DNA from: Hysterangium stoloniferum
Lineage: Eukaryota; Basidiomycota; Agaricomycetes; Hysterangiales; Hysterangiaceae
Assembly: GCA_015178975.1 (NCBI GenBank)
Contig: WHVD01000279.1
Coordinates: forward strand, 1-64,000
Reading direction: 5' to 3'
DNA: 64,000 nucleotides
Part shown: positions 35,330 to 57,101 of the stretch, one piece after another
Layout: each line of letters begins with the position of its first letter
How positions within the stretch are numbered: position 1 is the stretch's first letter
The notes under the pieces: generated by a model
The model's database searches: none
What the model saw: only the letters and a program-made list of their open reading frames with translations
Told to the model about the DNA's origin: nothing
Translations under genes and position numbers: made by a program

Positions 35330-36900
35330 CAGCCCGAATGTCCCCTTGTCCCCTTTCAACACAGCATCATGTCCGCTCATCAGCACAGCACCTTGTTCCT
35401 CATTGACACCGCACCCTGTCCTCCATCAGCACAACACCTAGTTCCCCATTGACACAGCACCCTGTCCTCCATCAACACAGCACCTCGTTTCCTGTCATTT
35501 TCAACAACCGTATTCTCTATTCAACCAGAGCCTGCACTGGTCATTGCACTTCTACCCAAAACGTATCAGGTGTGCTGGTGGCTTGATTAATGTACAGACA
35601 GCGATGTCAATGTGCCATCCGTGATATTCTTTTCCAAGGCCTAAACAAAGCAAGTTGTACTTCGCTACTGCAATCAATCCAACGGGCGGATACAGTGCTG
35701 CTTATGATGTGGTTATTGATGCTGGTGGTTTGATGGTAAGTAGATGCACGTCAAGAAGTGACTCTCAGACCTATTAATCGTTGCACCAGGGGCATGCTTC
35801 GTCATAATGTACCTCTCTGCGTATGTCAAGTAATTCTCCCACTACTTGTTGATCTCCGTTCACGTCACTCATCATCCAGGTGCTTATGAGCCTGTCCACT
35901 CGTAACATGGATAATACCAGTAAACTACGCAAGGTCGCTGCGATGCAGAGCCTACAACCCCATCTCGCAGCTTGACGAAAGCATGATTGAGTGTGAGCAA
36001 GCTCCATGATTAGAAGTTAATCAGGGTACGTTGCTTCCATCAGATAAAAGGGTTCAGCTAGCTCACCTGATTGTGTGTTGGTAAGTAAATCCTCCTCAAG
36101 AAGCGACTCTCAGACCTATTTCTCGTTCGGCATTCTTCGTCATAATGCACCTCTCTGCGTACCTCTAATATCTCTCCCACTACTTGTTAATCTCCGTTGA
36201 CGTCACTCATCTGCCAGCATGAGCCTGTCCACTTATAACGTGGATGATACCAGTAAACTACACGGGCAAGGTCGCTGCGTTGCAGCGCCTACATCACCAT
36301 TTTGCAGCTTGATGGGGTTGTAGGCTCTTCATCGCAGCGACCTCGTATAATTTACTGGTATCATCCATGTTCCGAGTGGACAGGCTCACGAGCACCTGTC
36401 AGATCAGTGACATCAACGGAGATCAACAAGTAGTAGGAGAATTATTGGACGTACGCAGAGAGGTGTATTATGACGAAGAATGCCCTGGTGCAACGATTAA
36501 TAGGGCTGAGAGTCACTTCTCGAGGTGCATTTACTTACCACTAAACCACCAGCATCAATAACCACATCATCGGCAACACGGTATCCGCCCGTTGGATTGA
36601 TTGCAGTAGCGAAGTACAACTTGCTTTGTTTGGCGTTGGAAAAGAATACCACGGATGGCACACCGACATCGCTGTCTGTCATTAATCAAGCCACCAGCAT
36701 ACCTGATACATTTTGGGTGGAAGTGTAACGACCGGTGCAGGCTCTGGTTGAATAGAGAATGCGGTTGTTGAAAATGACAGAAAACGAGGTGCTGTGTTGA
36801 TGGAGGACAGGGTGCTGTGTCAATGGGGAACAAGGTGCTGTGTTGATGAGGGGACATGCTGTGTTGAAAGAGGACAAGGGGAAATTCGTGCTATTAACAG
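35330..36900. repeat. large imperfect palindrome centred near 36310
   Basis: The left arm (about 35340-36000) reappears reversed at about 36310-36890. Shared landmarks include GCAGTAGCGAAGTACAACTTG, TCAATAACCACATCAT and GATCAACAAGTAGT. A third, direct copy of the inner part lies at 36075-36310 and abuts the right arm head-to-head at the centre. Both arms end in a roughly 30-bp repeat (CAGCACCCTGTCCTCCATCA, 35380-35490 and 36780-36870). Confidence 0.8.
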
Positions 36901-39318
36901 CCTTTCAGCCACCGCCAGTGGTCAATAGTTCACTGGTCATGCATCACGCACGTCTCGGTTTCACATCGATGTCTTCAACATTTAGGCCAGAAAACCTGCA
37001 AGTATTAGAGGCGACAGACGACCACTTTAAAGTCTTCGAAGCCAGCTTTCGTTGATACTTTCCCCTGATTTACCTTAATCAATCAATCTTCTATCGGTAC
37101 CATCTTTGTTGTATTCAAAGCCTCTTATCCGACACGCGTAGTAGGCGAATCGGATCCAAGTGGAGGGTGGGATGACTGCGGCGTACTTCCACTAATATTC
37201 ACCAAAAGGAATCCAAAGAAATCGAGAATCATCAAGTCAGGACAATTTAAGAATAAAACCTAAGCACGGACACTATACACTGAGTTCTGATTCGCCGCAT
37301 GCATTGGGCCAAGCAATTTGAACAATGCAACTGGCTCGTCAATAACCCTCCACAGTTCATCGAGAGCAAACTCCAGCCACGCCTTCCACACGAGTGCACT
37401 GACTGGGCACGTTTTTTCACCGGCGCGATTGAAATTTTTGGAAATGATATCGAGCCTGTACTGGTATCTGTGAGATGTAGTCGATGTCATTGTGGATATC
37501 ACTAAGGGTGTGACCCCACCCAATCACATAAAATGTCCCCTGAGTTTGAAACCGAGAGCCATACCTTGAGGTTCTCGAGGCGCTAGGTGCACCGAGGCCA
37601 TGGAAACTATCGTCCATTTTAGTTCTTGGAACCATGGAATGTTTTATTCTCATGCGATGAGGGATCCCGCCGCTGGCCCCTGCGGTCAAAATTCCCTGCA
37701 TCTCTAGGACAGAACCCATCCGGATAGGATACGATATGAGCAAATAAAGGGGTGGGTCTTAGTTAAAAAAAAGTTAAAATAGAAAGAACTTCGACCCAAA
37801 GACTGGAGTGTGGGCCGAGGAGGCGAGGAGCGAGACCGTTCACAGGGTCCGCGGAAGGGGAGATTAACCAAGGAATGAAGTATAACGAATAAGTTTGGGG
37901 ATGGTGGTCGGACCCACTGTTCAAGACGACGAGCAGTGTGCTGCATGGTATGTATGTGGCGTGTTTGTTGATGTGGTGTGGTGTAGTTCCGACCTTCTAA
38001 AAAGAAAGTAGTTGCAGGTAATATGCAATGATGTGTGTTTCGGGTAGTGTGAACCTCAAAATAATCAATCTTTTTAAAAGGGCCAAACGCTGATGTGCTG
38101 AGCGAATATGCTGACGCGGGATGTCTAAGCTCGTTAGCTTGAGTACAGAGGGTCATGGTCGTGTCAATATTATGATGTGAACAAACACAAACACAGTATT
38201 CACACTGTTTCTACTTGCAGTGTGAACAGAACTGAGTGGACCTAGCTGGCCCGACCTTGACTCATCAAGCTGCTCCAAGATCAAATAGAAACAGCTGGCT
38301 TCCATATTCCGTTTACCCAAGCAAATCAGGCGCCGACTTGGTGTTCACATGTGATACAGGGTTTACACCAAACACCGAAGAATAACTAGATCCTCAATAG
38401 ATACGGTTAATATCTAGGTTAAAATTCATTGTGTTTGAAAAAAGACGGTTGTGGAAGCTTGGGAGATGGAGCAATCCAATTTGGCGTATCGGTCAGTTCC
38501 TAGAATATCAGCCTCTCTGCCACCGGTCCTCAAGTTCTATCGGCACACCACTCCACATTGAGGTCACAGCAGAGCACGGTGAATAACTGACGGCTATGGG
38601 TGACAAGTAGCAAGACGAGACGGATGCAACAATGATTTTGTAAGATGGAACTTGATGGCAATCACTTGCAAAAATTACTGACTCGCGGCCAACAGTAGCT
38701 GATCATTAAGTTCCACAATATCTGCTAATATAACGTACGCATTTCGTTAAAGGGAACACGTTTTTCTTCCGAGCGTCACGTAAAGGAAATTGTAGTACGT
38801 TAAAAAGAAACGTCAAATAATGTGTAGAGTTCAACTGCAATGAAAGATTGGGCGTACCGCGAGACTTCACGGCTCCATCCGGTCAGACCTGGAATGCGCG
38901 GCAGTGGTTGTGCTAAGATACAGATTCTTGATGAATCCTGTGGTCTTTCTTTGAGTACAATGGGTGAACGACGGGGTTAAGGGAAATCATAGGCGTGGGA
39001 AGTGGCCACGGGAAAAGCCTGGTGACTTGTCGTTCTCAGGCTCCACCGCACTTTAGGGCACTGTTTCCCCTTCTAAGCTCCGCCATTGTGAACACCAACA
39101 TCCCTCACTCCGAGAAAATTTCCAAACAATGATTCCTATCTTTAATCGTCTGAAATGACCTTTTATTTTATACTCCGAGAGCCAGAACCTCTGGGTTCTT
39201 TCTGGTGCCTGCCACCACCAGGATTTTGATGTATGGTTATGAGCCTACACCCAGAGCGCGGCTGCATCATACACGCAGACATTGAATCAAAGCCTGACAG
39301 ATATGACAGAAATTAACC
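36901..39318. other. no recognisable gene
   Basis: Several medium open frames (36840-37055 plus, 37260-37523 minus, 37704-38156 minus) have no domain I recognise and no matching intron structure. I see no tandem repeat or LTR here. Confidence 0.4.
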
Positions 39319-39376
39319 CACGTGCTTGAGAATAATCCCTCCAAGGCTGTGTGCAATGAAGATAATAGGCCGTTTC
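39319..39376 (-). pseudogene. fragment of a serine-esterase domain (nucleophile motif)
   Basis: The minus strand reads QKRPIIFIAHSLGGIILKHV and then a TAA. It is the same G-x-S-x-G block as in the gene at 18246-20840 (IFVAHSFGG) and closer to the usual family form. Neighbouring sequence is degenerate, so this is a relic of a second esterase-type gene. Confidence 0.6.
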
Positions 39377-40881
39377 TGAAGTACTTCCTATGAGGAAATC
39401 ACAAGTTCGCTACATATGAATTGTACAAACCCTAGTATCTGAGATTCGTCTGAAAGAAGTATCACTACTAGGTTGGGATCGTCTTCTCCTAAATGAATGC
39501 CATAATACCCGTAAACCCATATCCATAAATGAAGAACTAAACAGCCCAACGACTTCCACAAACAGCGCGCTTCGGGGGTCTCCTACAAAGTAGACGGCAC
39601 CTCACCCTCAGGATAAGGCAAAGCCTACGACGAAAGACAAATGTTGGGTGAGGATGGTTGAATGCGATTGTGGGCGAGTTGCGATATAATGGAAGATAAG
39701 TTGCCTGATGATCGAATATACTGACCAAAGTATTGAGCGCTATACACCCAGGAACCACCCCCACAAGCTACGCAAAATGCATGTTTTTTGTGTCCTTTTT
39801 TTCTGAATAGGAGATAATGCCGTATTCCGCATCTCGGATGGTATGCCGTGTCGAGGTCGGAGTCCACTGTTAGATACTGACCGACCTCAAACATGAAACA
39901 AGAGGAACGACGAGATAAAAAAACTAAAGGAATGATAACTTTCAGTCGTACTTTCTGACGACTGTAGGAGATTTTTGAGTGTCTAGTAACCGCCTGGTAC
40001 ATGCACAGAAGGTCATGGTGGTAGATGAGATGACCAATGCCACGCTAACCAAAGGAAGGATTAATGGGATCAGACTTGGAGAAAATATAAACACCTTGAG
40101 AGGTGGATGTTTTACGAGCCGACTGCAAGGCCCATCTGGCGTATGCCAGTGTTAATGGACAGAATCGAGTAAACCCTAAACTCTGTTTTGTTATGAGTCT
40201 TCTACAAAACCATTTACAAAATCATGTGCAGTCTTTTACAAAGAGTACAGGCTGCCGACAAGGGACGTTGGTAGCGGGAGAAATATAAAAGGATCGTAGA
40301 TGGCAGACAAGCTTTGGTTAACGCGCGCCACTCGTAGGCCATACCGAATTGAGTATACCTCAATGTGATTCTTGTCTTTGTCTCTGTCCGTATTTGGTGA
40401 GCGGACCCCCAGTGGAAGCAAATCCGGGGGCCGCAGGCTCCATTGCACAAAGCATGCTGATGGGGACATGAGTGAGCCCCAACAGCATGCCAAACTAGTA
40501 GTAAATACATGAAAATTCAATCTAAACTACGAGTTTTGGAGTATTAAAGGAGCAGGAAAGGGTGGGATGGTGGGAAAAAGAAAACTACTCAAGGCAAGGC
40601 TGAGCAAAACCTTGAGGACCGGCCACTCAGACGATGGTGGCAAGAGACAAATGCGACAGGAAAAGGTTCCACTGTAGCGGAGCTTAAATGGGGAAAACAC
40701 TCCCATTAGAAAGACCGCGGTAGTGTCAGGGGCGCTTATTGAAATGGAGTACTTTATATCGACCGTTTGAAGCGCCCAACTGACTCAGCAGCATGACTTC
40801 GCAGATATTAGCTGCGCCGAATCACAGATACCGTTTGTCTCAGGTATTATTAAATCAAAGTTTCTTATTCTAAACTGAGGC
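39377..40881. other. no confident gene; upstream region of the HEAT gene
   Basis: A minus-strand frame at 39625-40002 (125 codons, some Cys/His) has no recognised domain. The last 300 bases before 40882 are the presumed promoter of the HEAT gene; I see no clear TATA box there. Confidence 0.4.
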
Positions 40882-43800
40882 ATGCAAGCAGAGAAAGGAA
40901 CGACCAACCGTCAACCTTCGTCTACCAATGTTCCCTCAACCCCAACCGAGGCGGCATCCAGTGGCCATAATGGCTTAGAAAGCGAGGACGATAACCCCTA
41001 TAGCAAGCACGTTGAATCAGATTCAACCATATGGTCATTATATCTGAAGGAAACGGAGAAAGAGGACAAAGAACTTGCCAACTCATTGCAAGTTGGTGTC
41101 GACGAGCTTCTAATATTTGTACGTAGAATTCGTTTTCCTTCATAGATATTCACTTAATTCACAGCTTTTCAGGCGGGTTTGTTTGGAGCGATTCTTACCG
41201 CCTTCCTGATCGAAAGTAGGAAGGATTTGCAGGTAGATCCTGTTCAGGAAATCCTTCAGACACTTCAAAATCACTTCGCTGTACCTACCTCTCAGCCTTC
41301 TCAAGTCTCCAAATCATCCCTTATCGTCAACTATTTGTGGTTCATTAGTCTCGGTCTAACTCTCTTCAGTGCTCTTTGTGCCGTACTTGCAAGAGAATGG
41401 CTGGCGAAGTATATTCCTGTATCCCCCGGAAGTCGCTCAAGTGATGCATGTGAACGTCTCCTTCGTGTTCAGAGAGCACAGCAATGGCACCTCGAATCAG
41501 TTGTTACTGGAATCCCGCTTTTGATTCAACTAGCTCTCTTCCTTTTCTCTGCAGGTCTCGTGGTATTCACCTGGAATAGCAGTGTAGCGTTGGGCATTCT
41601 TATGCTTTTTTTGACCATATTTGGAATCGTTCTATATATTCTCGGCACCGTTTTTCCCTTGTTGTCCCCCGCTTGTCCCTTTCAGACAACAGCGTCACGG
41701 TTTTTCCCAGTCGTCTCTGCAAGCGCAAAGTATGACTCATTCAAATCAGACTACTATGGGTCTTCGCCACCGACAAGGACGGATTCATACAGAATCTCTG
41801 AATGGCTACAAAGCCTTTCTCGGCTCTTCGCCGAACTGCATGGCAAGCCTCCACAGGCCGAACTTGAAGCTAATGTCCTTGCATGGGTGATTGCAAACTC
41901 CACATCGGAGGAGGTAGTTAAGGAGGTACTTAGGGCCGTAGCAGGTGCCAAACCATGTGAACAATTGCGGATTGCCTTGTGCCAACGAGCCGTCACGGAG
42001 AAATTATGCAAAATTTTGGAGAACTGCTTTCACCTCACGGCAGGCGTCGTCACTACACGTGATGCAGCGCTTGCGGAAGTTTCTCTCCTTGCAATGTCAC
42101 GAGTCCTATCGCCGCCAACAGACAAACTCATGAACAAAGAGTACCTTACACCCTTCGGGACTCTCCTAGATGTTGGGGGACCATTACATCGGTTGGACAA
42201 TTTAGAGCCTTGTGTGAAGACACTGGGGTGGGCGGTTCATATTGGTATTTGGGTAAACATGGATGATGTCGTTAACCGAGAGGTGCCGACAGGCCCACAC
42301 GTTGAAACGGTGGCCACTATGGGTGCAGCACCATACGAGCGAAGGACTTTGATGACGGCGACTATTGATGGAGCACGGTCAGAAAAGGAGGGCTTACGTG
42401 TAACCTGCGAACGGTTAATGTTAGCATATTGGCATCTTAGTAGGGATTTTTTCCATGGCTCCGGCAAAGAAACTAATTGATGGGCAGCGGATTGCCGGAA
42501 AATGCTAAAAGAAAATGGTTTAATAGCAGGTAAACTGCGTATACCATGAGTCAAAACACACATACCTAATTATTATCACAACAGGAAAAGAAAAAGAGTG
42601 GTTGAAGAAAAGGGTTAAAAAAGCAGGTGGTTCTGTGGAACAATCACTAGTGGAATGTGGTAAGAAAATGCCAAGTAGAGGAGGAGTACGATATAATATG
42701 CACCGGTGTTCAGCTAGATTCCCAACTGGTATGGTCGGTGCCATTCCCGACATTGTGGCACTGTTGAAGGACTCTGAGTGGCGCGTTCGATCAAGGGCAC
42801 TAGCGGTCCTGGGGAAGATTTCAGAGCAAGGTACGCTGTGTGACAGTGGGATGGGAATCCAACTGACATTTGACCACAGCCGAATTTCAAGCGGCCATTG
42901 CGGGTGTCATTCCCGACATTGTTGCACTGTTGAAGGACTCTAACTGGCTCGTTCGATCAAGCGCTGTATCAGCCCTGGGGAAGGTTGCAGAGCAAGGTGC
43001 CATGTGTGACCATGGGATGGGAATGCAGCTGACATTTGACCACAGCCGAATTTCGAGCGGCCATTGCGGGTGTCATTCCCGACATTGTTGCACTGTTGAA
43101 GGACTCTGACTGGAGTGTTCGGTCAAGCGCAGTATCGGTCCTGGGGACGGTTTCAGTGCAAGGTGCCGTGTGTGACATTGGGATCGGCATCCGGCTGACA
43201 TTTGACCACAGTCGAATTTCGGGCGGCCATTGGGGGTGTCATTCCCGACATTGTTGCACTGTTGAAGGACTCTGAGTGGCGCATTCGATCAAGGGCAGTA
43301 TCGTCCCTGGGGAAGGTTTCAGAGCAAGGTGCGGTGTGTGACCATGGGATGGGAATTCAGCTGACATTTGACCACAGCCGAATTTCGAGCGGCCATTGCG
43401 GGTGTTATTCCCGACATTCTTGCACTGTTGAAGGACTCTGACTCTGACGTTCGATCAAGCGCAGTATCGGCCCTGGGGAAGCTTTCAGAGCAAGGTGCGG
43501 TGTGTCACATTGGGATGGGAATCCAGCTGACATTTGACCACAGCCGAATTTCGAGCGGCCATTGCGGGTGTCATTCCCGACATTCTTGCACTGTTGAAGG
43601 ACTCTGATTCTGGCATTCGATCAACTGGAGGATTTGCCCTGGGGACGGTTTCAGAGCAAGGTGCGGTGTGTGACCATGGGATGGGAATCCAGCTGACATT
43701 TGACCACAGCCGAATTTCGAGCGGCCATTGCGGGGGTCATCCCCGACATTGTTGCACTGTTGAAGGACTCTGACTGGGACGTTCGATCAAGCGCAGTATC

Positions 43801-46800
43801 GGCCCTGGGGAAGCTTTCAGAGCAAGGTGCGGTGTGTGACCATGGGATGGGAATCCAGCTGACATTTGACCACAGCCGAATTTCGAGCGGCCATTGCGGG
43901 TGTCATTCCCGACATCCTTGCACTGCTGAAGGACTCTGACTCTGACGTTCGATCAAGCGCAGTATCGGCCCTGGGGACCGTTTCAGAGCAAGGTGCAGTG
44001 TGTGACATTGGGATGGGAATCCAACTGACATTTGACCACAGCCGAATTTCGAGCGGCCATTGCGGGTGTCATTCCCGACATTGTTGCACTGTTGAAGGAC
44101 TCTGACTGGCGCGTTCGGTCAAGCGCAGTATCGGTCCTGGGGACGGTTTCAGTGCAAGGTGCCGTGTGTGACATTGGGATGGGCATCCAGCTGACATTTG
44201 ACCACAGTCGAATTTCGAGCGGCCATTGCGGGTGTCATTCCCGACATTGTTGCACTGTTGAAGGACTCTGACTCTTACGTTCGATCAAGCGCAGCATCAG
44301 CCCTGGCGAAATTTCCAGAACAAGGTGATCCAATAAAACTTGTCGAAGAATCTGTCTCAAGTCTCCACAGGGGAGTTTCTCCCTCTCGTCAGGGCTGAAA
44401 TATGTGCGGCTGTAGGATTGTCGGTGAAAGGACAGCCAACGCCGCGTGGGTCGCTTTCAATCCCACTGCAAAGTATTCCCATTCCCCCCTTTCCCCCTCT
44501 CATTCTGATCGATACTGCGGTAATCTAGCAAGTGTCTCCGATATGCGAGAGCCCTCCGGACTATCTACCCGTCCTCTGTCGTCAACTGTGGATCTTTTGT
44601 ATAGTACTGATAGTATTTCGCGTCATGAAGACATCAAGATCATTCAATGCGCAACAATTGCATGTATGTGAAGACCGGTCACATATTATTCATTCACTAA
44701 TTTCCATCCCACCTTAAAGCGCGGAATTTTTACCTTCCCTTATCCAGATTCGACCTCAGAGCGTTACAAGGGAAGCTCGCTCTGTTGACAGTGGTCACTG
44801 CTCTCCATACATTTGGTCCGTGCACCAATTTCTCATAAACTGGCATGATTCATGGACTTGCAGACGCATTTGGAACCGCCATTACCGCCGCCATTCCCGA
44901 CGTTGTTACACTGTTGAAGGACTCTGACTCTTACGTTCGATCAAGGGCAGTATCGGTCCTGGGGACGGTTTCAGAGCAAGGTGCGGTGTGACAATGGGAT
45001 GGGAATCCCGCTGATATTTGACGACAGCCGGATTTCGAGCCCCCGTTGCGGGTGTCATTCCCGACATTGTTGCACTGTTGAAGGACTCTGACTGGCGCGT
45101 TCAGTCAAGCGCAGGATCGGTCCTGTGGACGGTTGCAGTGCAAGGTTCCGTGTGACATTGGGATGGGCATCCAGCTGACATTTGACCACAGTCGAATTTC
45201 GAGCGGCCATTGGGGGTGTCATTCCCGACATTGTTGCACTGTTGAAGCACTCTGACTGGCGCGTTCGATCAAGGGCAGTATCGTCCCTGGGGAAGGTTTC
45301 AGAGCAAGGTGCGGTGTGTGACCATGGGATGGGAATCCAGCTGACATTTGACCACAGCCGAATTTCGAGCGGTCATTGCGGGTGTCATTCCCGACATTGT
45401 TGCACTGTTGAAGGACTCTGACTCTGACATTCGATCGAGCGCAGTATCGGCCCTGGGGAAGCTTTCAGAGCAACGTGCGGTGTGTAACATTGGGATGGGA
45501 ATCCAGCTGACATTTGACCACAGCCGAATTTCGAGCGGCCATTGCGGGTGTCATTCCCGACATTCTTGCACTGTTGAAAGACTCTGATTCTGACGTTCGA
45601 TCAAGCGCAGTATCGGCCCTGGTGACGGTTTCAGAACAAGGTGCGGTGTGACAATGGGATGGGCATCCAGCTGACATTTGACCACAGTCGAATTTCGAGC
45701 GGCCATTGCGGGTGTCATTCTCGAAATTCTTGCACTGTTGAAGGACTCTGACTCTGACGTTCGATCAAGCGCAGTATTGGCCCTGGGGAAGCTTTCAGAG
45801 CAGGGTGCGGTATGTGACATTGGGATGGGCATCCAGCTGACATTTAACCACAGCCGAATTTCGAGCGGCCATTGTGGGTGTCATTCTCGACATTCTTGCA
45901 CTGTTGAAGCACTCTGATTCTGGCGTTCGATAAAGTGCAGTATTTGCCCTGGGGACGGTTTCAGAGCAAGGTGCGGTATGACATTGGGATAGGAATCCAG
46001 CTGACAATTAACCACAGCCGAATTTCGAGCGGCCATTGCGGGTGTCATTCCCGACATTCTTGCACTGTTGAAGGACTCTGATTCTGGCGTTCGATCAAGT
46101 GCAGTATCTACCCTGGGGAAGCTTTCAGAGCAAGGTGCGGTATGTGACATTGGGATGGGAATCCAGCTCACATTTGACCACAGCCGAATTTCGAACGGCT
46201 ATTGCGGGTGTCATTCCCGACATTGTTGCACTGTTGAAGGACTCTGACTATTACGTTCGATCAAGCGCAGTATCGACCCTGGGGACGGTTTCAGAGCAAG
46301 GTGCGGTGTGTGACAATGGGATGGGAATCCAGCTGACATTTAACCACAGCCGAATTTCGAGCGGCCGTTGCGGGTGTCATTCCTGACATGGTTGCACTGT
46401 TCAAGTACTCTGACTCTTCCGTTCTATCAAGCGCAGTATCGACCCCGGGGAATGTTTCGGAGCAAGGTGCGGTATGTGATCATGGGATGGGAATCCAATT
46501 GACCTTTGACCACAGCTGAATTTCGAGCGGCCATTGCGGGTGTCATTCCCGACATTCTTGAACTGTTGAAGCACTCTGATTCTGGCGTTCGATCAAGTGC
46601 AGTATTTGCCCTGGGGAGGGTTTCAGAGCAAGGTGCGGTGTAACATTGAAATAGGTATCCAGCTGACGTTTGACCATAGCCGAATTTCGAGCCGCCATTG
46701 CGGGTGTCATTCCGGACATTCTTGCACTGTTGAAGCACTCTGACTCTTACGTTCGAGGAGGCGCAGTATGGGCCATAGGGATGGTTTCAGACCAAGGTGC

Positions 46801-47535
46801 GGTGTGTGACATTGGGATGGGAATCCAGCTGACATTTGACCACAGCCGATTTTCCAGCCGCCATTGCGGGTGTCATCCCCGGCATTGTTTTACTGTTGAA
46901 GCACTCTGACTCTGACGTTCGATCAGGCGCAGTATCGGTCCTGGGGAAGCTTTCAGACCAAGGTGAGGTTTGTGACACTGGGATGGGGATCCAGGTGACA
47001 TTTGACCACAGCTAAATTTCGAGCGGCCCTCGCGGGTGTCATTCCCGACATTGTTTCACTGTTGGAAGACACATATTTACACGCTCAAACAGAGGTTGTT
47101 GACTTGCTCGTTAAGCTAGCAGCTCATGGTGTGTGCCCTTGACGCGCAAGTTGAAACCTTCCCCTCACATGTTTTCAAAGAGCGCTTTCGTGAAGCTATT
47201 ATTGGCTGTAACCTACAACATCACTGTATATCCCTTGTTCATGCCGACAATGACGCAGTCATTTTAGCTGGTGGAAAATTGTTTGTAGCTTTTGCTCACT
47301 ATGGTAAGCTTTAATTCTTTGCATCATTGACTCCTTTCACCGTCTTGCAGGTTACCTTACCAACATTAAGCTGCGGATAGTCCTGTCTGCATTGTGCTAT
47401 CTATATTTACCCCGACCACCTCTGCAACACCATTGTATGCTGATTGAAATTCTCTTGAAATCTAGTAAGTGTTTGTATCCTGTAGTTGTAATAAATGCTG
47501 ATCTAGGTAGCTTGTGTAAGCCACACCATTCTTGA
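40882..47535 (+). CDS. DUF6535 membrane protein fused to a 24-unit HEAT repeat array, one repeat per exon
   Basis: Exon 1 (40882-41118) starts MQAEKGTTNRQPSS and ends SLYLKETEKEDKELANSLQV...LLIF. A 54-nt phase-0 intron follows. Exon 2 (41173-42529) continues AGLFGAILTAFLIESRKDLQ and three hydrophobic helices (YLWFISLGLTLFSALCAVLA; IPLLIQLALFLFSAGLVVF; LGILMLFLTIFGIVLYILG). This is the DUF6535 pattern of Agaricomycete proteins. A TGA at 42478-42480 interrupts exon 2, but an upstream donor (42440) joined to the acceptor at 42584 would remove it in frame. Exon 3 (42585-42830) holds the first HEAT unit. Nine 117-bp exons (42880-44324), a linker (44371-44472, 44529-44667, 44748-44815), fourteen 117-bp exons (44864-47128) and short final exons to a TGA at 47533-47535 follow. 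A TAA at 45931-45933 lies inside one repeat exon. The product would be about 1,700 residues. I infer a membrane-anchored recognition or scaffold protein; it may be partly pseudogenised. Confidence 0.75.
42880..44324 (+). repeat. HEAT exon array 1: nine 166-bp exon+intron units
   Basis: Units start at 42880, 43046, 43212, 43378, 43544, 43710, 43876, 44042 and 44208, exactly 166 bp apart. Each is a 117-bp exon followed by a 49-nt intron (46 nt after the last). The exon reads AEFRAAIAGVIPDIVALLKD, SDxxVRSSAVSALGKLSEQ with the splice after the first base of the next Ala codon (phase 1). The intron has donor GTGCGG, branch site CTGAC and acceptor CCACAG. Confidence 0.95.
44864..47128 (+). repeat. 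HEAT exon array 2: fourteen exon+intron units
   Basis: 117-bp exons start at 44864, 45028, 45192, 45358, 45524, 45688, 45854, 46018, 46184, 46350, 46516, 46680, 46846 and 47012. Introns are 47 or 49 nt; the short form lacks one TG of the GTGTGTGAC block. Unit 45854 has TAA in place of the TCA codon after V-R. Unit 45358 ends CAAC instead of CAAG before its donor. The last unit diverges after DIVSLLED and leads into the C-terminal exons. Confidence 0.93.
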
Positions 47536-48053: not shown

Positions 48054-48189
48054 CAGGCTTTTGCATGAAAATCATATGACAATGTTGATTGTTTGCACTT
48101 GTTTATATTTTTCAACATGTCATGTGATCATGCTATGCTAAAGTATAAGAAGAAGGGCTCTCACAACTAAGATTCTTCTAATTTCAACT

Positions 48190-49190
48190 ATGCATCCTCT
48201 GTCCTCTGCTGTCCAGCATGAGATCCTTTCTCTATTTGATGCTGGCCATTCTGCCGAACATATTTCCATTTCTACTGGATATAACTTTCCTACTATCTCT
48301 AGACTTCACTCTAAACATCATTCCCACCTTTCTAAGTCCTCTGGTGGTCATCCTTCCAAACTCTCTACAGCCAACATCTGTTTTGCACAACATCTTATCA
48401 GCTCTGGAAAGGCTGATACAGCTATAGATGCAACAAGGCACTTTGCACTATCACCAACCAGTTACTCAATCCTCAAACAGTACATCATGGACTCAAGGCA
48501 GCTGGGATGAAGCCTGTGGTAAAGAAGAAAAAGCCTCTTCTTTCTAAGAAGCATAGGAAGGAGAGGATGGACTTTGCTTTGATACATCAGAATTGGACTA
48601 TGGAGGACTGGAAGACAGTGGTGTGGTCTGATGAGACAAATCAATAGGCTGAGGTCAGATGGTAGGAAGTGGGTGTGGAAAAAGGCAGGGGAGGGCTTGA
48701 GTGACAGGCTGGTTGAGAGAACCCTGAAGTTTGGTGGTCGATCTTTGATCATATGGGGGTGCATGCTGTAGGGAGGGGTTGGTTATGTATGCAAGATTGA
48801 CGGAAGGATGGATGGCGATCTCTACATACAGATTCTAGAGTATGACTTGTAAGCCAGCCTCAGGGATTATGGTAAATCTGCAGATGATGTCATCTCCAGC
48901 AGGATAATGACCCCAAGCATACCTGCAAGAAGGCCCAGAATTGGTTCCAAGAAAATGGTTTCAGGGGTCTCTCATGGCCAGCACAGTCTCCTGACCTGAA
49001 TCCCATTGAACACTTATGGAATTACCTGAAGAGGAGGTTGGCAGGGTATGAGAATGCATCCCAGGAGATGGAAGAGCTTTGGGAGAGGATAGTGGAGGAA
49101 TGGTACAAGATTGATGCAAAGGTGTGCCAGGATTTGATTGAAAGTATGCCTAGGAGGGTTGCAGATGTATTAAATGTTAAAATCTGCTAG
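48190..49190 (+). pseudogene. Tc1-like transposase, frameshifted
   Basis: DDE transposase of the Tc1/mariner superfamily, which cuts and pastes the element at TA sites. The N-terminal helix-turn-helix region (MHPLSSAVQHEILSLFDAGH...) is open to 48510. A shift follows, then KKHRKERMDFALIHQNWTME and the first catalytic block VVWSDET (about 48625). Another shift and three stops (TAG near 48768, TAA near 48849) interrupt it. The second aspartate block appears as QQDNDPKHT after another shift (about 48900), and the third as SPDLNPIEHLWNYLKRRL (about 48990-49045). It ends VLNVKIC-TAG at 49190. At least three frameshifts make it inactive. Confidence 0.88.
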
Positions 49191-55779: not shown

Positions 55780-57101
55780 TGTAATGTATTCAGGGGATTC
55801 TCTTAGATAGCTCAATAGATGCTATAGTGTCACAGAGCTTCAACAATAAAACAAGCAAAGGTCCAGTAATTTAAATACTGATAGATTAATGAGCTGCGCT
55901 ATGAAGCTTAAACAACTCAAATCAATGCTTATTTTGATTATTGAAAGGTTCAATAGAACTGTATATGACTCTTTTAGCAAATACAAGAACTATTCCTTGA
56001 GAATAGGGGCTGGAAGCTGAATATATGCGCAGTAACTTGGCAGAGACTTGATATAAGAGCTTCGGATTTTTGTATGCTTATTTGTAACTATTAATAGTTA
56101 TTTAACAAGGTGTTAAATAATTTATTAATAGAGAAAATAAATTGTATTGGATTATCTGAGTGCTTGTACTTGATTAATTCAATAAACTTAGGGCTGGGCC
56201 TTGAGTAATCTAGTATTGACAGGGATTTCAGTAAGGATACTTAGATACTTATTAGGTTTATTATCTAATTAATAAGCCTAAAGGGTAGCTGTGAGGCTGG
56301 GGAACTTAGATGATTAGCTAAGTTCAAGAGTTGCTGACAAAGATTCAAGATGCTGCAAGTGTAGGTGCTTGCAGTGAGTGTATCAGACTAAGGCTATTAT
56401 TGTCCTTAGGATGATTAAATAAGCTGGTGCTGTGCTGCAAATGTGTGTGTGATAAGATTGTTTTATTGGAAACTTGGCCCTCCTTATATACATTTTGACA
56501 ACTCAATGATTAGCTAACTATTTAGTTTATGAGGTCATTAGTGAGATCATAATGACCTCATATTCTACTCATTATTTACCCTTTGTTTAACATGTGATTC
56601 CCTTCTCTGAGACAAGGGTTCTAACCTCTTGCTTGAACATGAAGGTTCAAGGCCGCGGTCCCGGGACGGAAGCAAACGATGAGTCGGCGGAACCTAATAA
56701 TGACTCGGGTAGTCACGTTCGTGACTTGTGTGACTCGGGTAGTCACATTCGTGACTTGTGTGACTCGGGTGGTCACATTCGTGACCTTTGTGACATCCCG
56801 ACACTGGAGGCTTATGTAATAAGTCACATGACTCCAAAAATGCGCAAACTAGGCTGCACAAGGTGCCGAAAGGTAATAACTAAGTAAATAAAATATAAAT
56901 AATTAGTTAAAAATTATAATAAATTAACTAAGATATAATAGCATAATATGAGTTCATATATGCTATTATTATGCGAAGTTAAAAGGAATAGAGCCTATAT
57001 TTCACAATAAAAATATAATAAAAATACAATAAATTCGAAAGAATATTAAATAATCCACAGAAAATTAAGAGGATATTATGATATGATGCTGATACATCAC
57101 A
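55780..57101 (-). mobile_element. solo LTR (family L1) nested in the gypsy element
   Basis: 1322 bp, forward-strand ends TGTAATGTATTC and GATACATCACA, flanked by GAATC at 55775-55779 and 57102-57106. It is the reverse-oriented relative of 6199-7451. A TATA box (reverse of CCTTATATACATTT, about 56483) and three copies of an 18-30 bp motif GTGACTCGGGTAGTCACATT (56700-56790) are visible. The insertion is younger than the gypsy copy it splits. Confidence 0.9.

Follow-up and report, generated by a model that had tools for sequence, protein, structure and literature searches.

A 64,000-nt stretch of the Hysterangium stoloniferum genome (positions 1–64,000 of contig WHVD01000279.1, assembly GCA_015178975.1), hereafter the window, contains a gene in which a DUF6535 module is followed by 24 HEAT repeats, each encoded by its own predicted exon of exactly 117 bp. 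Hysterangium stoloniferum is a member of the Phallomycetidae. A preliminary description of this DNA had seen one gene with 23 such exons in a row; we found that it is one member of a large family, whose paralogs differ in repeat number and exchange repeat units. Based on sequence comparison, we propose, with a probability of about 0.62, that this is a germline-diversified family of membrane-anchored DUF6535-HEAT recognition proteins.

In the window, 24 core motifs spaced 166 or 164 bp apart define two blocks of 10 and 14 HEAT exon units. The exon array of the preliminary description is real, but its count of 23 should read 24, and the two arrays are not continuous, a three-exon coding linker lying between them. 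All 24 units measure exactly 117 bp between AG and GT, and each encodes a 39-residue HEAT unit. The family consensus for 38 of the 39 residues is EFRAAIAGVIPDIVALLKDSDSDVRSSAVSALGKVSEQ, the remaining residue spanning the exon junction. Introns inside both arrays are GT-AG introns of 47 or 49 nt and unit 10 is followed by an intron of 46 nt, in agreement with the 46–49 nt described earlier, as are their phase 1 and the exact 166-bp period of the first array. The spliced model, built from conserved splice sites, has 33 exons (40882–47464, + strand) and 1666 residues with one internal stop; its first intron is in phase 0, all others are in phase 1, and the units and linker exons are all phase 1/1. 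Since each repeat is a single 117-bp phase-1 exon, the frame is kept at any unit number. The last exon and stop codon of the window gene were not found, and the 3' end of the model is a donor site. Its parts are as follows.

40882–41118, + strand: exon 1, start of DUF6535 (gene model)
41173–42439, + strand: exon 2, remainder of DUF6535 with predicted membrane helices, and a helical region (Pfam, hydropathy)
42488–42529, + strand: exon 3, 42 bp, phase 1/1 (gene model)
42585–42659, + strand: exon 4, 75 bp, phase 1/1 (gene model)
42714–44324, + strand: HEAT exon block A, ten 117-bp exons separated by nine 49-nt introns, each interval being exactly 166 bp (core motifs and splice sites)
44371–44815, + strand: conserved coding linker between the blocks, with exons 44371–44472, 44529–44663 and 44720–44815 (102, 135 and 96 bp)
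44864–47128, + strand: HEAT exon block B, fourteen 117-bp exons separated by introns of 47 or 49 nt (core motifs and splice sites)
47181–47464, + strand: two C-terminal exons, 47181–47303 and 47351–47464, the model ending here at a donor site

The window protein matched HEAT in Pfam (PF02985/PF13646; E values of 4e-54 and 2.6e-45) and DUF6535 (PF20153; E value of 1e-44, 152.9 bits against a curated cut-off of 23.9), and exon 2 alone matched DUF6535 (E value of 4.3e-34) and no other family. By hydropathy, the DUF6535 part of the model contains about four membrane-like segments, at approximately residues 71–95, 129–154, 185–214 and 213–249. The earlier claims of a fusion to DUF6535 and of one HEAT repeat per symmetric exon are thus supported at the sequence level, the latter by the window model and by the units of the 13 genes introduced below. 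Neither NACHT nor NB-ARC was found, exon 2 matching DUF6535 only and neither family being among the 25 of 33 families listed for the longer protein; LRR and ROC were likewise not among the 25 of 33 listed for the window protein, where alpha-solenoid families and DUF6535 appeared instead.

Some variants of this model were considered and rejected. Later donors for the array introns exist as GT 5, 7 and often 9 bases downstream, but those at 5 and 7 break the frame and the one at 9 is absent in the 47-nt introns. If the DUF6535 frame is continued into exon 3 without an intron, most paralogs show a stop (by eye), which a 48-nt intron removes. A higher-order period of 496 bp was computed for block B and was not general by lag analysis.

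Across the 111 Mb genome, we detected 75 DUF6535 matches and many array loci. For 36 of the 52 best of these 75 matches, a HEAT-unit match in the same orientation lies no more than 10 kb downstream, a rough figure that rests on 51 hand-picked array positions from incomplete lists, in which adjacent DUF6535 matches may share credit for one array and missed positions lower the count. The genome's best DUF6535 match (C441:1294290–1294880) has no HEAT-unit match within 10 kb among the positions used; therefore, DUF6535 genes without such arrays may exist. Detailed comparisons were made on 13 genes, namely the window gene and 12 paralogs fetched in full or nearly so, all from this one genome. They contain 388 unit hits, of which 384 are exactly 117 bp, 384 keep the GT and 383 keep the AG, so that the 117-bp layout is not a product of chance. 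Phase was established for the window model, and unit lengths and splice sites were checked for the other genes. The arrangement of block, linker and block was present in all 13, with linkers of 525–552 bp; by eye, exon indels in the linker alignment are all multiples of 3, and the remaining indels sit in introns. Genes carry from 22 to at least 44 units. In two paralogs, C517 and C201, the gene runs to the limit of the fetched sequence, so that their 44 and 42 units are minima and their last unit is not the true end, and the 24 units of C545, where two unit hits overlap, may be 23. A further paralog, C32, was fetched without most of DUF6535, and its exon 2 piece, with 13 stops in the cut frame, was omitted from the exon 2 test below.

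Comparison of close paralogs revealed changes in unit number. The window gene and paralog C2:1474000 have a synonymous divergence (dS) of 0.02 in exon 2, yet they carry 10 + 14 and 11 + 16 units (24 vs 27), and 5 to 16 of 117 bases differ between their aligned units. Before the array, this paralog is the nearest relative of the window gene (98.95% identity). The linker of the window gene is 97.6% identical to that of C32 and 95.6% to that of C2:1474000, its last four units are 1–5 bases away from those of C2:1404000 and C32, and after the last unit three close paralogs are about equally near (97.8–98.2% identity over 444–448 nt). Because the nearest relative switches along the gene, units appear to have been exchanged between paralogs. 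There are also traces within genes: in C377, identical units are present in both blocks, and in C157, units B9–B11 equal B14–B16, a shifted three-unit run. No identical unit pair within the gene was found in 9 of the 13 genes. The units that open a block, and the one that closes block B, retain their positional identity; this holds less for inner units. The latter are barely closer within a gene (distance of 0.155) than between genes (0.178), and their nearest neighbour lies in the same gene in 157 cases and in another in 143, with 33 ties; traces of exchange are therefore about equally apparent between and within genes. At the level of the genomic sequence, these comparisons demonstrate unit-number variation between paralogs and unit exchange both within and between them. 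The preliminary description had spoken of a recognition array built for rapid change in length: unit number does differ between paralogs, while recognition is a role that we infer.

We considered whether the window contig could be a haplotig of C2, the near copies being allelic, and rejected this. The RPB2 family has three loci in the assembly, each on one contig only (C519, C223 and C100), and the near copies are thus read as paralogs rather than as alleles of two nuclei. Upstream of the gene, positions 36900–40800 are shared piecewise at 80–98% identity, or near 70% for a few small pieces, with four other loci at which this gene is present, one on C32 and three on C2. Judging from these alignments, the sharing is due to segmental duplications.

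The exon units are constrained in both length and frame. Stops were counted in 333 inner units, a set made up of the 117-bp units that neither open nor close a block, the four units of other length being excluded; 2 were seen, against 99 expected from the exon base-change spectrum or 116 from that of the introns. Only 4 of the 388 exons depart in length (one out of frame), whereas 101 of 361 introns (28%) are not 49 nt, a rate at which about 208 exon length changes would be expected. A branch-like CTNAY motif is present in the last 25 nt of 314 of the 359 introns, compared with 59 after one shuffle each. The 117-bp units are free of stops in 11 of the 13 genes, and in C157 a single unit has both a stop and a broken acceptor. 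Exon 2 has an open frame in each of the 12 genes for which it was fetched entire, and the ratio of nonsynonymous to synonymous divergence (dN/dS) has a median of 0.39 and a maximum of 0.55 (66 pairs). On these counts, the coding constraint on exon length and frame is clear, and the dN/dS values indicate that the DUF6535 exon is under purifying selection.

The window copy itself carries two lesions that the preliminary description did not report, at the following positions.

40793–40843, + strand: site in the window of the short first coding exon of the paralogs (upstream alignment by eye, 11 paralogs with sequence there)
45854–45970, + strand: unit 17 (unit 7 of block B), with an in-frame TAA (spliced reading)

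The upstream first exon is shared by all 11 other genes with sequence there and is 10 nt shorter in the window; owing to this deletion, its frame fails to join exon 1. The ATG at 40882, where the window model starts, is present in the window and in C201, and is ACG or ACA in the 10 other genes with sequence there.

Variation among the units is concentrated at particular codons. The most variable are 23 (18 residue types), 22 (19 types), 21, 27 and 34. In the library of alphaRep, an engineered HEAT binder, the variable positions are reported as 18, 19, 22, 23, 26 and 30 (PMC3754942); by alignment to alphaRep structures, they correspond to 22, 23, 26, 27, 30 and 34 here. Four of the five most variable codons are thus alphaRep positions (p ~0.001, the top five having been picked after seeing the data), and mean entropy is 1.82 at alphaRep positions and 0.93 elsewhere, a difference reached by random sets at a frequency of 0.0014. 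Two alphaRep positions, 26 and 30, do not belong to the variable set in the Hysterangium family. In a homologue from another Agaricomycete, Mycena albidolilacea P0001, the most variable positions are 26, 22, 23, 21 and 30, despite a different repeat consensus, with a mean entropy of 1.76 at alphaRep positions against 0.62 elsewhere (random sets 0.0004; 17 of 23 anchored units taken as 39 residues, the length of the last of the 17 being assumed). Divergence per site in the Hysterangium units is 0.081 in the intron, 0.17–0.28 in seven variable codons, which were chosen on the same data, and 0.07–0.09 in the other codons. We also computed the ratio of replacement to synonymous differences per site (pN/pS) for disjoint nearest pairs, in three nested sets, using the 240 inner units whose downstream intron measures 49 nt. 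At alphaRep positions it was 1.08 (52 pairs) and 1.35 (76 pairs), compared with 0.69 and 0.70 elsewhere. Selection at the predicted binding positions is suggested by these figures, not proved.

These observations can be accommodated in a model in which the DUF6535 module would anchor the protein at a membrane, as hydropathy and a structural model of a Mycena venus homologue suggest, and the HEAT solenoid would present a variable binding face. The Mycena venus model (predicted local distance difference test score, pLDDT, of 78) has long helices followed by an alpha-solenoid. The 50 matches listed in a fold search with it included long alpha-solenoids such as importin alpha and catenin (TM-score, relative to query length, of at most 0.27), and none of them was informative about the membrane module. 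In the germ line, the arrays would be diversified by unequal crossing-over between exon units and by gene conversion. As each unit is a single phase-1 exon, such exchange would leave the frame open, and arrays could grow, shrink and swap units. The variable arrays may then recognise varied partners, whether nonself, microbes or host plant molecules; H. stoloniferum is reported to be ectomycorrhizal (PMC7550596). The recognition reading is helped by the predicted binding positions varying in two lineages and by the exchange of units between paralogs.

Several of our results weigh against recognition, and some of them are shared with other explanations. The comparison is between paralogs of a single genome rather than between strains, and in the numbers expected for stops, altered lengths and branch motifs, changes inherited from a common ancestor are treated as independent. 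The alphaRep positions were themselves derived from natural HEAT variation, so the agreement with them speaks for an exposed variable face, not for binding. Variable sites are indeed expected to be solvent-exposed in any HEAT repeat, and the family could instead serve scaffolding or trafficking, with the exon–intron unit acting as a 166-bp minisatellite and exposed positions drifting without any role in recognition. A tandem unit with a nearly constant period is in keeping with this, as is the near-neutral overall ratio of replacement to synonymous change (N/S) of 1.02 in the inner units, computed from 2549 single-base codon changes from consensus (800 synonymous and 1749 replacements). The 26 closest pairs (at most 6 nt apart) also lack a replacement excess, their pN/pS being 0.56 at alphaRep positions and 0.96 elsewhere (p 0.36). 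On the other hand, stops are avoided and the frame is preserved, Mycena shows variation at the same positions, the copy number in one genome is high, and divergence at the most variable codons is 2 to 3.5 times that of the intron, which the other codons match, although these variable codons were chosen on the same data. We regard this drift scenario as unlikely, if a serious contender.

The window gene, with its TAA in unit 17 and its 10-nt first-exon deletion, may be a decaying copy, a further point against our proposal. Taken to the whole family, decay would mean that most copies, the window included, are pseudogenes spread by segmental duplication in a transposon-rich genome. The unit of C157 with a stop and a broken acceptor, two relic arrays (L029 and L030) and flanks rich in transposons point that way, but only 2 stops occur in 333 inner units where about 100 would be expected, 11 of 13 genes have none in their 117-bp units, and the DUF6535 exon is open in 12 of the 12 genes in which it was fetched entire; we give this explanation very little credence. 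Splicing raises a different question. Fungal donors follow a GTRNGT-type consensus, from which the usual array donor, GTGCGG (230 of 359 introns), departs, being weak by that measure; this also counts against the proposed recognition family. Weak and nearly identical donors, together with window units and linker exons that are all phase 1/1, would suit symmetric exons that serve combinatorial alternative splicing, giving many array lengths from one gene in one mycelium, as has been reported of brown-algal ROCO genes. Germline changes suffice to explain the pattern, however, and we consider such splicing improbable as the main purpose of the exons. Germline diversification of a membrane-anchored recognition family is the explanation we prefer.

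The family may have been overlooked, as public H. stoloniferum protein models hold the arrays only as fragments and, among the 24 entries found with the DUF6535 end, none is named as H. stoloniferum. In the seven public models found, a simple pattern search indicated that 27 unit junctions are joined as expected from splicing and that an intron-like piece is kept at 3. One of these H. stoloniferum models, P0032, joins DUF6698 to HEAT units and has a tail that looks retroelement-like by eye and has no Pfam match; it is probably an annotation artefact. The relic HEAT-exon arrays L029 (on C1) and L030 (on C140) have a shortened third unit and no DUF6535 match used within 10 kb. A first impression that they were intronless arrays was rejected, both being broken relics; of the two, L030 is covered by public model P0027, as judged by eye.

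Outside the gene, the neighbouring DNA includes one recognisable feature downstream.

48888–49190, + strand: DDE_3 transposase fragment, Tc1-like by eye (Pfam)

An open frame beside it (48142–48510) has no Pfam family match. Further along, 1.2 kb of the window (55780–57000) is repeated, with at least 36 matches elsewhere in the genome at 95–99% identity (40 of 5505 candidates scored).

One repeat per exon at constant length and phase is already known in brown algae and Tetrahymena. The brown-algal ROCO (LRR-ROC-COR) genes are described as having one 72-bp repeat per exon in phase 2, with shuffled exons and reported alternative splicing (PMC11378527; Zambounis 2012, as cited there and in PMC6564038). 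Together with the NB-TPR genes, they resemble the Hysterangium family in their fixed-length one-repeat exons, fixed phase and shuffling, and are proposed immune receptors, for which site selection on the concave face is reported (PMC11378527). They differ from it in carrying LRR or TPR rather than HEAT repeats, in phase 2 rather than phase 1, in ROC-COR or NB rather than DUF6535, and in belonging to an unrelated lineage. Tetrahymena LRR genes are reported to contain arrays of exactly 90-bp exons in phase 2, nearly 50,000 of them in 10 species, and ectopic recombination has been proposed for them (PMC6564038). Equal-length exon arrays in one phase and varying in number are common to both, whereas the genes described here encode HEAT repeats in phase 1, in a fungus and in far smaller numbers. 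Among the features of this exon-modular class, those found in Hysterangium are constant-length one-repeat exons (from splice sites), a single array phase (in the window model) and variable unit number.

Among fungi, NOD-like receptors (NLRs) with highly conserved WD, ANK or TPR (HEAT) repeats, for example in Podospora, are reported to have concerted repeats and to act in nonself recognition (PMC4986451). Our family resembles them in the exchange of repeats within and between paralogs, in repeat-number variation and in variable positions, which are concave in NLRs. It differs in that the NACHT or NB-ARC present there was not found here, and the sections of that report consulted do not mention introns between repeats. 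Mycena albidolilacea P0001 (1679 aa), one of the agaricomycete 'armadillo-type' DUF6535 proteins, likewise has two blocks of mostly 39-aa HEAT units and a linker (41% identity over 89% of a 1041-residue query), but its repeats are homogenised to another consensus and it is known here from protein. The alphaRep binders share the repeat type, and are engineered, with 31-residue units (PMC3754942). In open-access literature searched for DUF6535, HEAT exon arrays and expanded fungal repeat families, none of the listed titles and abstract openings indicated a previous description of this layout, and the one mention of DUF6535 found in open-access papers is a table entry. As far as these searches show, the novelty lies in finding the layout in a fungus, with HEAT repeats, phase 1 and DUF6535.

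If our proposal is correct, fungi and the HEAT fold would join the lineages in which binding proteins diversify rapidly by giving each repeat its own exon, and DUF6535 would gain a concrete, testable role. The intron of every unit, diverging about as much as the constrained codons, also offers a built-in yardstick for selection on the exon. More tentatively, and we think it doubtful in this full form, the genes might constitute a non-NLR fungal repertoire of membrane-anchored DUF6535-HEAT receptors, their symmetric one-repeat exons shuffled among many paralogs in the germ line, and perhaps also combined by splicing within each mycelium, a system reached independently of brown algae and ciliates. 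The mobility of the arrays would suit the recognition of changing partners, as has been argued for fungal NLRs and brown-algal ROCO genes.

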